Of a DNA stretch of 64,000 nucleotides, positions 22,110 to 63,381 are shown piece after piece. Within the stretch, counting starts at the first letter, position 1. Each line of letters opens with the position of its first letter. The translations under genes were made by a program, and so were the position numbers. Under the pieces are notes generated by a model, which worked only from the letters and a program-made list of their open reading frames with translations, did no database searches and was not told where the DNA came from. Source of the stretch: Pedobacter puniceum (GTDB lineage Bacteria > Bacteroidota > Bacteroidia > Sphingobacteriales > Sphingobacteriaceae); contig NZ_WKJI01000001.1 of the NCBI RefSeq assembly GCF_009674685.1, positions 1,488,001 to 1,552,000 on the forward strand, read 5' to 3'.

Positions 22110-22191
22110 TACCCAGAGCCGGGGTCGAACCGGCACATCCGAAGATATTGGTGTTTGAGACCAACGCGTCTACCAATTCCGCCATCTGGGC
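22110..22191 (-). tRNA. tRNA-Leu (anticodon CAA)
   Basis: The reverse complement begins GCCCAGATGGCGGAATTGG and ends GGTTCGACCCCGGCTCTGGG-T-A. Acceptor stem GCCCAGA pairs with TCTGGGT (G-T at the first pair). The D-arm, the anticodon stem TTGGT/ACCAA with loop CTCAAAC (anticodon CAA), a short class II variable arm and the T-arm are all present. CCA is not encoded. It lies 19 bp after the hscB stop on the same strand, so it may be read through from that gene. Confidence 0.96.
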
Positions 22192-34351: not shown

Positions 34352-35836
34352 CTATTCCGGCAAATATTTAGACAAATAAGGCTTAAGCTTAGCATCGTAA
34401 CCATAAACATCATCTGCGATGATTAATTTTCCGCTGTCATTTGTCCAAGCGGTATAATAAGCAATAAAAACTTTTACAGGCTCTTTAATTTTAACCCATC
34501 TTGAAGCTATCTCCTCTCCTTTGGCTGCAGCCTGAGTTTCTTTTTCTATACGTTGAGCCTCCCTATCATTATTCAATAAGAAAGCAGCCAATTTCATGGG
34601 TTGTTCTACACGTACGCAACCATGACTAACAGCTCTGTTTTTCTCCTGAAACATGGCTTTAGCAGGTGTATCATGTAAATATATCGCATAGGGATTTTGG
34701 AATATAAACTTGATTTGCCCTAAAGAATTATCAGCACCAGGGTTTTGTTTAAAAGCATAATCGGCAACAGAAGCTGTGCTCCAATCTATACTTCTTGCAT
34801 CTACCAACTCGCCTACCTTATTGTAAGCTACCATATTATTCTCCTCCAAATAATTTGGATTAGATTGTAAGCTTACCATAATTTCTTTACCAGCAATGCT
34901 TTTAGGAATATTCCAAACAGGGTTCACCTGCATCCTATCTATATTGCCGCTTAAAATTGGTGTTTCATGGTTTTTACCATCTTTAGAAAACGGAGCATAA
35001 GCCGTTTCGCCAACGCAAACCTTCATTTCTAAATCGGTAGTATTGTTTTCTATCATCCTGAGCTTAAATTCCGGGATATTTACCAATAAATACTTACCGC
35101 TGTACTCTTTTGTTGGCCATCTTAAACGCTCTAAAGAAAAGTAAATTTTTTGTTTATCGCTGGCACTTAAAGCTTGTTCTGGTGTTTCATTAATCAATAA
35201 ATTTTGAAGCCTTTGGTAATAGCCGTTTTTAGGCTGAATATCCTTTAAAAAGCTAGCCAGCTGTAATTGGTCTAATGTTTTATGAGAATCAATAAAATCT
35301 GGTCTTTTTACGCTCACATAATATCGTCCAAAAATACTTTTTGGATTTACAGCACCATACTTCAAGATATTAGAATAATTAATCAAAGCATCGGCACTTA
35401 AAATTTCTAAACTTGCTAATAATGGATAACTCTCCTCAACCTTTTTAAACTTTTTGGTTTTCACCTGATGTAATAAATCATTAATCTCCTTGGTATGAAA
35501 ATAAGATGGATTTAGCCCATGAAAAACACTCAATTTTAAATACCTAGATAAGGTGTCAAGCTCTCCATTAATTAAAAAATCGCCAATAAGGGTTAAACCT
35601 TTCTCCTCTTCTTCGTACATTTTACTTATCCATTTTGGGTTATGGATACGTTCTTTTTCTTTTACTAACTGCTTCTTAAAAACCTGATAATAGGCAGTGG
35701 TATCAAAATCTTTGTATTTTTTACTTTTAAAAGTCTTGGCTAAATCTCTTCCAAACTCTTCGTGTTTGTATTTTTTGCAAGACACTAACAAGAATAAACA
35801 AACAATAAATAGGTTGATGGTATACTTTAAACTCAT
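34352..35836 (-). CDS. L,D-transpeptidase lipoprotein (YcbB-like)
   Basis: 494 residues. The N-terminus INLFIVCLFLLVSCKKYKHE is a lipoprotein signal with lipobox LVSC. The N-terminal half is a helical region, ending in a peptidoglycan-binding-like or substrate-capping part. The C-terminal YkuD catalytic domain has VNIPEFKLRMIEN, VNPVWNIPKSIA and the active-site signature SHGCVRVEQP with the nucleophile Cys near residue 406; an upstream IYLHDTPAK contributes the catalytic His. Such enzymes form 3-3 peptidoglycan cross-links or attach proteins in the periplasm. It stands alone between two long spacers. The start at 35836 is divergent from the his leader by about 175 bp. Confidence 0.88.
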   Translation of the reverse strand: MSLKYTINLFIVCLFLLVSCKKYKHEEFGRDLAKTFKSKKYKDFDTTAYYQVFKKQLVKEKERIHNPKWISKMYEEEEKGLTLIGDFLINGELDTLSRYLKLSVFHGLNPSYFHTKEINDLLHQVKTKKFKKVEESYPLLASLEILSADALINYSNILKYGAVNPKSIFGRYYVSVKRPDFIDSHKTLDQLQLASFLKDIQPKNGYYQRLQNLLINETPEQALSASDKQKIYFSLERLRWPTKEYSGKYLLVNIPEFKLRMIENNTTDLEMKVCVGETAYAPFSKDGKNHETPILSGNIDRMQVNPVWNIPKSIAGKEIMVSLQSNPNYLEENNMVAYNKVGELVDARSIDWSTASVADYAFKQNPGADNSLGQIKFIFQNPYAIYLHDTPAKAMFQEKNRAVSHGCVRVEQPMKLAAFLLNNDREAQRIEKETQAAAKGEEIASRWVKIKEPVKVFIAYYTAWTNDSGKLIIADDVYGYDAKLKPYLSKYLPE

Positions 35837-35934
35837 ATATGTTTTTTGCTTTGTGCTTAGGCAATTGTTATGCCCTTATGTAAATCACCAAATTTCAATC
35901 TATCTCCAAAGACTAAAATAAATATCATATTACC

Positions 35935-35964
35935 TTGTAATTTAAGCAATGCTTTATATATTTG
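35935..35964 (+). promoter_or_regulatory. Bacteroidota-type promoter of the his operon
   Basis: TTG at 35935-35937, a 19-base spacer and TATATTTG at 35957-35964, an exact match to the Bacteroidota primary-sigma consensus (TTG-N19-TAnnTTTG). The implied start of transcription is near 35970, about 40 bases before the leader peptide ATG. Confidence 0.65.
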
Positions 35965-36008
35965 CAGCATTCTAATATTTCTCTTCACGTAGAAATTATT
36001 AAAAAGAC

Positions 36009-36104
36009 AAAATGAAAAAGTTTTTAACCACTGTACATCATCACATTCATCACCACTTAGGTGGTGCGCTATAGTATGTTTTGTACGTCAAAACTTTTCA
36101 TTTT
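36009..36104 (+). promoter_or_regulatory. His attenuator: pairing arms and terminator-like hairpin
   Basis: Three alternatives can be read. First, CACCAC (36051-36056) pairs with GTGGTG (36061-36066), using the last His codons. Second, GTTTTG (36078-36083) pairs with CAAAAC (36089-36094) and is followed by TTTTCATTTT, a terminator-like hairpin. Third, AAAATGAAAAAGTTTT (36009-36024, one bulged A) and GTAC (36033-36036) pair with GTAC (36083-36086) and AAAACTTTTCATTTT (36090-36104); this long stem excludes the terminator hairpin. Mutually exclusive folds around His codons are what attenuation needs. The precise order of events is inference. Confidence 0.75.
36012..36074 (+). CDS. hisL: His operon leader peptide
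   Basis: A 20-codon open frame MKKFLTTVHHHIHHHLGGAL then TAG. Six of its 20 residues are histidine, in the arrangement HHHIHHH. It starts about 40 bases after the predicted transcription start and ends 68 bases before hisG. Ribosome stalling at His codons when charged tRNA-His is scarce would control folding of the RNA downstream. Such peptides are the classical attenuator of enteric his operons. Confidence 0.9.
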   Translation: MKKFLTTVHHHIHHHLGGAL

Positions 36105-36141
36105 AAATAATCAATTAGTCTTTTAATAATAAATAATCATC

Positions 36142-36993
36142 TTGAAAACTTTAAAAATTGCTATCCAAAAGTCGGGCAGACTTAACGAAAAATCTGTAGA
36201 ACTATTAAAAAACTGCGGCTTAAGCTTCGAAAATTATAAAAGCTCCTTAATATCATCGGTTTCAAATTTCCCTTTAGAAATTTTATTCTTAAGAGATGAT
36301 GATATTCCAGAATATGTACAAGACGGCATTGCTGATATTGGTATCGTTGGCGAAAACGTTATTGCAGAAACCAAAGTAGAAGTTGCTTATTTACAACGTT
36401 TAGGCTTTGGTAAATGCAAATTAAAACTGGCAGTTCCGGTTAATAGTACCCTAAGTAATATACAAGATTTAAACGGTAAAGCTGTTGCAACTTCTTACCC
36501 AGTTATCTTAGAAAAATTCTTTAACGATAACAACATCAAGGCTGATATTAAGATGATTTCTGGTTCGGTAGAAATTGCACCAGGTTTAGGTCTTAGCGAT
36601 GCTATTTTTGATATTGTTTCTACAGGCGGAACTTTAAAAAGTAATGGTTTAAAACCTTTTGCCGATGTTATGTCTTCAGAAGCCATTTTAATTGGTAGAA
36701 ACGGCGAAGAAGAAAATCCGCTTATACAAGAACTTATACAAAGAATACAATCTGTTTTAAGAGCAAAAGAAACCAAATATGTGGTTTTAAATGTAGAAAA
36801 GAAAAACCTTGAAACCGTTATTTCGTTACTTCCAGGAGTAAAAAGTCCTTCTGTGGTATCTTTAGCCGAAGAAGGCTGGGTAGCCATACACACCGTTATT
36901 CCTGAGCAGGATTTTTGGGAGAAAATAAACTCTTTAAGAGCTGCCGGAGCACAAGGTATTGTGGTAATGCCTATTGAGAAGATAATACTTTAG
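36142..36993 (+). CDS. hisG: ATP phosphoribosyltransferase (long form)
   Basis: First committed step of histidine synthesis: ATP + PRPP to phosphoribosyl-ATP. TTG start (KTLKIAIQKSGRLNEKSVEL); no better start is nearby. The catalytic periplasmic-binding-like fold has DIGIVGENVIAET and the PRPP-binding stretch FDIVSTGGTLKSNGL. The C-terminal part (about 205-283, LNVEKKNLETVISLLPGVKS and the end GAQGIVVMPIEKII) is the ACT-like regulatory domain of the long HisG form, so feedback inhibition by histidine is expected. It begins 68 bp after the His-rich leader peptide and is followed by hisD. Confidence 0.96.
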   Translation: MKTLKIAIQKSGRLNEKSVELLKNCGLSFENYKSSLISSVSNFPLEILFLRDDDIPEYVQDGIADIGIVGENVIAETKVEVAYLQRLGFGKCKLKLAVPVNSTLSNIQDLNGKAVATSYPVILEKFFNDNNIKADIKMISGSVEIAPGLGLSDAIFDIVSTGGTLKSNGLKPFADVMSSEAILIGRNGEEENPLIQELIQRIQSVLRAKETKYVVLNVEKKNLETVISLLPGVKSPSVVSLAEEGWVAIHTVIPEQDFWEKINSLRAAGAQGIVVMPIEKIIL

Positions 36994-38472: not shown

Positions 38473-39135
38473 ATGATGAGAAACTTTTTATATTTTTTGC
38501 TTCTTAGTCATGTCTTAACATCATGCTCTTCTAATTCTGCTCAAAAAGCTTTAAAAGAAGATAAAGTTTTAACAATCCAAAAAGATGATAAAAGAGAATC
38601 ATTATACAGCATCAAAGACTCTGGCTATTTTTGGAATGAATTAGACGAAGGCAAATTTCTTATTCTAGAATTTAAAGATAAAACCATAGACTCCATTGAC
38701 ACATATTTTGGAGTTTATTCATTAAAAAATAAAGATATCGTATACTTAAAAGTCTCAAAAGATAAAACTGATGATTTTGATTTTAAAAAAGACACTGTTT
38801 ATGGCTCTACTGATAAGTACATTATCTTAAAAAAAGGCTCTAAAAAATCACTCAAGGACCTAACATTATACTTTGATGATTATTTTTCATCTCCAATTTT
38901 TAAAAATGACAAAATTTATTTTTGGGGTATTGATTATAATGAAAAAACTAATCTAGGAAAAATTTATGCTACGGAATACAACTTACTAACTAGTAAGACA
39001 AAGCAAAAATTTTTAATTGAAGACGACTTAGCTACAGACTTTAGAGGTTATTTTAAAGAACCTTATGAAAATAATGATAAAATTATTTTCGAACACCAGA
39101 ATAAAAAATGGGTATTTAATAAAGAATTCCAATAA
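38473..39135 (+). CDS. Putative lipoprotein inserted between hisD and hisC, unknown function
   Basis: 220 residues. The N-terminus NFLYFLLLSHVLTSCSSNSA is a lipoprotein signal with lipobox LTSC. The mature part is rich in Lys, Asp and Phe/Tyr, consistent with a beta-structured envelope protein (KFLILEFKDKTIDSIDTYFG, DDFDFKKDTVYGS, ITYFDDYFSS-like segments). I do not recognise a family. It has no link to histidine synthesis and splits the hisD-hisC pair. The hisC start (39140) lies 4 bp after its stop, so it is presumably expressed with the operon. Very AT-rich. Confidence 0.75.
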   Translation: MMRNFLYFLLLSHVLTSCSSNSAQKALKEDKVLTIQKDDKRESLYSIKDSGYFWNELDEGKFLILEFKDKTIDSIDTYFGVYSLKNKDIVYLKVSKDKTDDFDFKKDTVYGSTDKYIILKKGSKKSLKDLTLYFDDYFSSPIFKNDKIYFWGIDYNEKTNLGKIYATEYNLLTSKTKQKFLIEDDLATDFRGYFKEPYENNDKIIFEHQNKKWVFNKEFQ

Positions 39136-43571: not shown

Positions 43572-43811
43572 ATGGAATCCATCACAATAGAAATATTAAA
43601 TCCAAAAGTTAAAAGGCTATTACAAAATTTAGCAGACTTAAATCTAATTGCTATTTCGCAAAATGAAGCAACTTCTGAAGATCTTAAACAATGGGATTTG
43701 CTAACAAAAGAGCAACAAGAGGGGATTTTTGATGCCATAGAATCTATAAAATCAGGTAAAGGGAAACCGCATAATGAAGTAATGGATAAACTAAAAAAAA
43801 TCTATAAATGA
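43572..43811 (+). CDS. Putative antitoxin of a RelE/ParE-type pair
   Basis: 79 residues, begins 26 bp after hisF. Sequence MESITIEILNPKVKRLLQNL, then acidic EATSEDLKQWDLLTKEQQEG and a C-terminal Lys-rich tail. It looks like the small partner that usually sits before ParE/RelE toxins in Bacteroidota, with a structured N-terminal half and a toxin-binding C-terminal half, but no DNA-binding fold is obvious. Its stop overlaps the toxin start by 4 bases (ATGA), the normal coupling of such modules. Family assignment rests on context. Confidence 0.72.
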   Translation: MESITIEILNPKVKRLLQNLADLNLIAISQNEATSEDLKQWDLLTKEQQEGIFDAIESIKSGKGKPHNEVMDKLKKIYK

Positions 43812-44107
43812 TTAATGAGATAGTTTGGTCTCCTGAATCTGAAAATGATTTATCCATTATCCTAGAATACCTTGTATCAAAATGGAATATTAAAGTTGCT
43901 ACCCATTTTTTAGATGAAATTGAGCATCAAATACAACTCATAGACAGTAACCCTAAATTGTATCCTATCATTCATAAAGAACAGCGATTTAGACAATGTG
44001 TCATCACAAAACATAATAGTTTGATATACGTCCATGAAAACACACAGATTATTATCCTAAGAATTTTTGACACGAGACAAAATCCAAAAAAATTAAAATT
44101 TCAATAG
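43808..44107 (+). CDS. Type II toxin, RelE/ParE family
   Basis: 99 residues: INEIVWSPESENDLSIILEY followed by LVSKWNIKVATHFLDEIEHQ and LIDSNPKLYPIIHKEQRFRQ. This is the typical ParE/RelE pattern (W-S-x-x-A/S-x-x-D-L, then I-x-x-N-P, then R at the core strand, then IIILRIFDTRQNPKKL at the end). Toxins of this fold cut mRNA on the ribosome or block gyrase; which one applies here is unknown. Translation is coupled to the antitoxin. It is located between hisF and hisIE and ends 2 bp before the hisIE start. Confidence 0.85.
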   Translation: MINEIVWSPESENDLSIILEYLVSKWNIKVATHFLDEIEHQIQLIDSNPKLYPIIHKEQRFRQCVITKHNSLIYVHENTQIIILRIFDTRQNPKKLKFQ

Positions 44108-62974: not shown

Positions 62975-63369
62975 GGGGTCGACCGGAATTGACAGGATGG
63001 AAGATCAGTGTGTAAGCATGCAGCGAATTGAGAAAACATCGCTATAATCAGGATTCTCAAACTATAAAAGGCGAAAATAATTACGCTCTTGCTGCTTAAT
63101 TTTAACCGAGTTAAAATTAGCCTCGTCTCGCTAAAGTAGCGGAAGCAGGATGTTTCCCGGGAGTTATGTCTGGCGACACCCGATTAGGAAGCACCGAAAA
63201 GCCGGAATAAGGATAAGTTAGTTTCGAGCTTATCCCGACAACCAAAGAAACTAAGGTTAAAGCAGGCTGTTTGTGGCCAACTTTAGCTCTAAAATCAATT
63301 GCAAAATAAGCATGTAGAAAGCGCAACTCATCCCATGTTTGGACGAGGGTTCGAATCCCTCCGGCTCCA
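62975..63369 (+). ncRNA. ssrA: Transfer-messenger RNA (tmRNA, ssrA)
   Basis: The 5' end GGGGTCGACCGGAATTGACA pairs with the 3' end CGGCTCC to form the acceptor stem; the T-arm GGGTTCGAATCCCTCC precedes it. The internal open frame GGC GAA AAT AAT TAC GCT CTT GCT GCT TAA (63070-63099) encodes the degradation tag GENNYALAA. The acceptor 3' CCA is not encoded in full. About 395 nucleotides. tmRNA rescues stalled ribosomes with SmpB. A terminator follows at 63382. Confidence 0.97.
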
Positions 63370-63381
63370 CATTAACAAACT

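Follow-up and report, generated by a model that had tools for sequence, protein, structure and literature searches.

Layout of the his leader

The his genes of the window (the whole stretch of DNA analysed, 64,000 nucleotides) extend from hisG at 36142 onward. The hisG gene is a 99% match to that of Pedobacter glucosidilyticus. An earlier note on this DNA had described a promoter, a 20-residue leader peptide with repeated His codons and several named pairings before hisG, and all of these parts are present 5′ of the gene, each where that note had placed it. The features of the region are as follows.

35935..35964, + strand: promoter, with TTG at 35935-35937, 19 nt between and TATATTTG at 35957-35964; predicted from the sequence
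35973..36001, + strand: hairpin f, a local 5′ hairpin (TAATATTTCT/AGAAATTATTA); halves-swap test
35995..36008, + strand: arm a of the long stem, 5′ of the leader start; swap tests
36009..36025, + strand: arm b of the long stem, including the leader start codon; swap tests
36012..36074, + strand: leader peptide ORF MKKFLTTVHHHIHHHLGGAL, 20 codons, 6 of them His; a His-rich ORF lies at the same place in relatives
36051..36066, + strand: hairpin d, CACCAC (36051-36056) with GTGGTG (36061-36066), within the last His codons; folding and alignments
36078..36094, + strand: hairpin e, GTTTTG-TACGT-CAAAAC, −2.9 kcal/mol; proposed hairpin of the starvation form, formerly read as a terminator
36090..36104, + strand: arm b′, pairing with b and overlapping the 3′ arm of e; swap tests
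36118..36130, + strand: arm a′, pairing with a and ending about 10 nt 5′ of hisG; swap tests
36142..36993, + strand: hisG, TTG start, first gene of the his operon; PF01634 (2.9e-51) and PF08029 (3.9e-26)

Bacteroidota promoters follow a −33/−7 pattern. The sequence TAnnTTTG has been given as the −7 box (PMC9723704), and a box similar to that of the window, as judged by eye, precedes the leader in relatives too. Transcription would start at about 35971. The leader RNA 35971-36141 folds with −29.8 kcal/mol, compared with −16.7 (sd 3.0) for shuffled sequences (z −4.36), and none of 200 shuffles equalled it.

The long stem is formed by 35995-36025 with 36090-36130, the outer helix pairing ATTATTAAAAAGAC (35995-36008) with GTCTTTTAATAAT (36118-36130). 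The version proposed previously, 36009-36024 with 36090-36104, proved real but too short, since the outer helix a:a′ extends it to within about 10 nt of hisG. Hairpin f shares part of its 3′ arm with arm a and therefore cannot coexist with the outer helix of the long stem.

Other ORFs also lie within the operon. A 79-residue ORF and a gene of the ParE toxin family (PF05016, 1.6e-10) lie between hisF and hisIE (43572-44107) and are probably a toxin-antitoxin module of the parDE type. Between hisD and hisC, a 220-residue ORF (38473-39135) appears lipoprotein-like by eye and has no Pfam match. Elsewhere, the window contains a tmRNA gene (62975-63372, + strand) and a tRNA gene (22110-22191, − strand), both assigned with Rfam.

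The leader peptide and the long stem in Sphingobacteriaceae

The conservation of the leader was studied in two sets of loci. The first set comprised the best 80 hisG loci from a contig scan of genomes plus the window, and a script located a His-rich ORF with an ATG start at the expected place in 79 of these 81. Outside the 79, locus L018 has a similar leader ORF with two His codons, found by eye, and L069 lies at a contig end and is not countable. The second set consisted of 50 hand-chosen further loci of Sphingobacteriaceae, none identical to the first set (L235 and L236 are identical to each other), and a His leader was present in 49/50; L230, counted among the 49, has one of another type, and L231 has none. 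Three other members of the family occurred in a sample of the phylum; two of them (L085, L086) have the leader and the third (L084) does not. The conservation of His codons in relatives, anticipated in the earlier note, was thus found in both sets. A frame conserved in 79/81 loci is not a chance occurrence; the His codons are retained in almost all species examined, and the sequence flanking them is divergent. These data support the assignment of the leader as a leader-peptide regulator of the his operon, and the locus has the amino-acid-rich leader peptide of a ribosome-mediated transcription attenuator. In L016 and L017, an in-frame stop shortens the leader ORF to 15 codons, and the downstream hairpin sequence is retained.

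Column-based consensus folding did not recover the outer stem in any alignment. RNAalifold recovered nothing from a column alignment of 56 sequences, and on clade alignments it found only d and e in one and d, e and part of b:b′ in another. In a 14-sequence alignment, hairpin d shows two-sided changes at two of its six pairs. The failure of the column alignments is attributed to shifts in the register of the arms between species, and because of these shifts alignment-free swap tests were used.

For the main swap test, L015 (little upstream DNA) and L050 and L059 (no regular hairpin e) were left out, leaving 76 loci, and 48 remained after dereplication. The 5′ and 3′ arms from the same locus paired with −16.25 kcal/mol, compared with −11.24 (sd 0.46) for permuted arms, and none of 10,000 shuffles was as low. 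The second set, from which L229-L231 were omitted (47 left, 32 after dereplication), gave −17.97 kcal/mol for own arms and −12.53 for swapped arms, again with 0/10,000 shuffles. Own arms therefore beat swapped ones in both sets, as expected of the compensatory change foreseen for this stem, and the tests bear out the claim that the leader start codon and the 3′ arm of e are joined in one stem. Separate tests of each helix (n = 45, with L046, L055 and L079 omitted and hairpin e of L007 and L053 set by hand after misplacement by the script) gave z values of −7.8 for b:b′, −6.1 for a:a′ and −8.4 for hairpin f. When the halves of f were swapped among the 45 species, own halves paired with −3.64 kcal/mol and swapped ones with −1.72 (0/10,000 shuffles).

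Related sequences are not independent, and disjoint pairs of relatives were used for this reason. At a similarity of 0.50-0.75, the cis combination of the long stem beat the trans combination in 31/36 pairs (p 6.5e-6); over wider ranges it was better in 28 of the 36 informative pairs (0.50-0.85) and in 24 of the 33 (0.50-0.93). The outer helix alone was better in cis in 22/35 pairs at 0.50-0.75 (p 0.09), and hairpin f in 21/28 (0.50-0.93). In the second set, cis was better in 18/21 distant pairs, and the 23 pairs of closer relatives were divided into 14 cis and 9 trans (p 0.2). Swap tests within clades were weaker and of low power, and several failed: a:a′ reached z −0.4 in Mucilaginibacter, and b:b′ and a:a′ reached z −0.6 and −1.3 in Pedobacter.

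The distance from the end of the 3′ arm to hisG is 0-21 nt in 45/48 loci of the first set and 30/32 of the second. L046, L055 and L079 retain the stem though hisG starts 65, 91 and 31 nt beyond it. In these three loci and L229, additional nucleotides separate hisG from the stem or leader, and hisG has an ATG start; in L055 the end of a 24-codon ORF overlaps the hisG ATG, and in L229, of the second set, the leader stop lies 108 nt before hisG. The start codon of hisG is otherwise distinctive, only TTG or GTG being used in 76/80 loci of the first set and 48/50 of the second. Three of the four first-set loci with ATG are those in which hisG is displaced from the stem. A weak TTG or GTG start fits control of hisG initiation by structure.

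Structures such as 5′ hairpins and long stems are able to protect mRNA, and on this general principle the stem might serve mainly mRNA stability or initiation of the leader, histidine control being exerted elsewhere. We consider this very improbable, given that nearly all species examined retain the His codons despite their differing surroundings.

Ribosome position and hairpin e

Folding was repeated with the footprint of a ribosome placed on the leader, L021 and the three displaced loci being omitted and hairpin e of L007 and L053 again placed by hand. With the footprint on the leader stop codon, the long stem is closed and e is mostly absent. In comparison with this state, a ribosome stalled at the first His codon lowers b:b′ in 41/44 loci of the first set and raises e in 39/44. 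The second set responds similarly, with b:b′ lower in 45/47 and e higher in 47/47. The computed folds thus contain mutually exclusive pairings that depend on the position of the ribosome. Since e forms on stalling, it is assigned to the starvation state, which is the reverse of the earlier assignment.

The effect on hisG itself is smaller. The stem comes within about 10 nt of hisG, yet the accessibility of hisG −18..+3 was unchanged by stalling in 45 species (again without L046, L055 and L079), a negative outcome for occlusion of this segment. The number of pairs between hisG −30..−4 and the leader, a measure chosen after that negative result, fell on stalling at the first His codon in 30/44 loci and rose in 5/44 (mean 9.87 to 6.67); in the second set it was lower in 30/47. 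Stalling at the third or last His codon had no effect on the pairs of the hisG region. A footprint on the leader start reduced the pairs between hisG and the leader in 42/44 loci when alone and in 41/44 when queued behind a stalled ribosome, and in the second set in 44/47 for each. In the window, the stall at the first His codon left these pairs unchanged (12.6 vs. 12.5), and only a ribosome at the leader start opened them.

The earlier note had interpreted 36078-36094 as a terminator. The hairpin and its tail do exist, with UUUUCAUU following the stem, but at −2.9 kcal/mol it is weak, and as a family-wide feature it is not supported. A simple scan of 35800-36300 for consensus terminators found none (mean 0.1 in shuffles), and no strong intrinsic terminator, with a stable hairpin and a U tract, was seen before hisG in the window. 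A U-rich tail follows e in 9/48 dereplicated loci of the first set and in about 21/48 of the second (48 with L229 included; the raw count of 22 includes L219, where the hairpin is another one). Eighteen of the 22 second-set tails belong to the genus group g3 (18/25 of its loci), the Pedobacter clade of the window is also among those with a tail, and L085 and L086 have U6 and U7 after e. In tailed loci e has −1.8 to −5.8 kcal/mol, mostly about −3. These energies and tails led to the rejection of e as a terminator of the whole family and leave it as a rival reading for the clade of the window and for g3, in the former of which it may still act as a weak terminator.

His leaders from other families of the phylum are different. 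The phylum sample contained 128 genomes with HisG, and the upstream region was viewed in 69 of these and in the window's own genome, the best matches first and hand-picked ones afterwards. With the count restricted to leaders that start with ATG and have 32 residues or fewer, 23/67 loci passed; two of them (L085, L086) are from the same family, leaving 21, and L091, L095, L124, L126, L127 and L130 thus fall outside this count. Of the 21, 19 (L089, L096, L099, L107, L109-L112, L114-L121, L123, L125 and L129) have a terminator with an energy between −9.8 and −20.5 kcal/mol and L102 and L150 have none; hisG starts with ATG in all 19. The same scan from leader to hisG within Sphingobacteriaceae yielded a terminator of −8 kcal/mol or below in 1/48 loci of the first set (L017, a d/c hairpin and not e) and 0/48 of the second, where five loci have hairpins between −5 and −8 kcal/mol. 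The same kind of scan detected such a terminator at 2/6 convergent gene ends in the window, so absence by scan is not proof that a terminator is missing. Four Trp leaders of the family have GC-rich hairpins with U tracts, as judged by eye, so terminators in general are still in use in the family. Daejeonella-like loci have a run of U between arms b′ and a′; its reading as a long-stem terminator was rejected, since L014, L020 and L030 lack it and complementarity to the A-rich leader start accounts for it.

Transcription attenuation, in which e would be a weak intrinsic terminator opposed by the long stem as antiterminator, would account for the tails after e in the window, in L085 and L086 and in 18/25 loci of g3, and the terminators of other families suggest it as the older state. 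Nevertheless, we regard it as unlikely, given the low stability of the window hairpin, the lack of a U-rich tail in 39/48 first-set loci and the formation of e on stalling in the folding, by which transcription would be terminated under starvation. In addition, arm a′ is transcribed after any termination point at e (36095-36104) and still pairs with a, a pairing that would be pointless if the RNA ended there.

Rho-dependent attenuation would dispense with such a hairpin. In tnaC, a Rho loading site is covered by a stalled ribosome, and the C-rich, G-poor stretch formed by the His codons could act in the same way; the loss of a strong intrinsic terminator and the C-rich patch after e in several clades, seen by eye, are compatible with this. 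We find it improbable, because the His run is similar in relatives that do have terminators, part of the run is paired in hairpin d and the conserved long stem would be unneeded.

Some sequence features of e itself should be mentioned. Its stem is TTTTG/CAAAA in the Pedobacter clade and TTTC/GAAA in most others, and the loop UACGY and the stem are near-invariant in many species, beyond the apparent need of an alternative helix. The motif has one exact match in the genome, at hisG, and five matches with one mismatch, compared with 11 for a reversed control. The C-rich patch (CCYCCG or CCCC), where present, follows soon after e and is unpaired in some predicted duplexes, again by eye.

A proposed translational switch and comparison with known leaders

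The reading to which we give close to an even chance is that the locus carries a leader-peptide switch with His codons that acts on the translation of hisG, operating without a strong terminator. With ample histidine, the leader would be finished quickly, the stem would shut off both the leader start and the approach to hisG, and little hisG would be translated. When His-tRNA is short, ribosomes would stall and queue on the leader, covering arms b and a, so that e would form instead and hisG would be translated. A contribution of queued ribosomes to the opening is favoured because, in the folding, a single stalled ribosome gives partial opening of the hisG region and none in the window. Translation as the controlled step is mildly favoured by the position of a′, by the 3′ arm lying within 21 nt of hisG and by the weak start codon of hisG; the loci with a tailed e and those in which hisG lies 31-91 nt beyond a retained stem are arguments against it.

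The wider evolutionary proposal is more tentative. The his attenuator of the family may have lost its strong terminator and turned to translational control, with the leader start codon and the approach of hisG joined by one stem and hisG opened by the crowding of ribosomes more than by the exact codon of the stall; TTG or GTG would have replaced ATG as this change took place.

A close parallel is the attenuator of the enteric his operon (Rfam his_leader, RF00514). It also has consecutive His codons before hisG and alternative pairings that reach into the leader ORF; the Sphingobacteriaceae leader differs in having no strong terminator and in that its 3′ segment pairs with the region where the leader itself starts. 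The his_leader model gave no match at the gathering threshold, nor up to E 5 for 35900-36200, and the Sphingobacteriaceae element as a whole matched nothing in the copy of Rfam searched. In translational attenuators of the erm type, the leader start is not known to take part in the sequestering stem. They share with the proposed switch the control of the next start codon by the position of a ribosome on the leader and differ in that the ribosome is stalled by a drug and not by amino-acid shortage. Attenuators of this type have been described (PMC5118997).

The actinobacterial LEU element of leuA is reported to have a leader peptide without a terminator and a base stem to the start of the structural gene (PMC1262725). 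Its Shine-Dalgarno box base-pairs with Leu codons and its authors lean towards a protein ligand (PMC1262725), whereas here the leader start pairs with the segment preceding hisG. Within the phylum of the window, Bacteroid-trp RNA (RF01692) has been described as a leader element (PMC2864571); it contains Trp codons, and the window leader has no Trp. RF01692 matched 4/61 genomes of the family at E 0.001, one of them over the cut-off; these four hold the Trp leaders with GC-rich hairpins mentioned above, and with stricter filters there was no match in the window's own genome. For Flavobacteriaceae, a structured element before hisG is described as having no Rfam hit, and strong clues for leader peptide attenuation are reported for amino-acid operons (PMC9723704). 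A literature search that covered a minority of subscription journals returned no account of the his leader form of Sphingobacteriaceae. The hisG element of Flavobacteriaceae, the clues for attenuation and leuA leaders without a terminator can be considered already known, and the his form of Sphingobacteriaceae is apparently new.

The element is present in most Sphingobacteriaceae loci examined. Bacteroidota are not known to rely on Shine-Dalgarno pairing, which leaves structure as the means of controlling access to a start site in this phylum. His-rich leaders also precede hisG in other families, where they differ in having strong terminators and an ATG start of hisG, both mostly absent in Sphingobacteriaceae. 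Terminator-bearing His leaders elsewhere in the phylum and those of Sphingobacteriaceae without strong terminators, with the start codon of hisG differing in parallel, therefore offer a natural comparison, which, if the proposal is true, would show a route from transcription attenuation to translational control.
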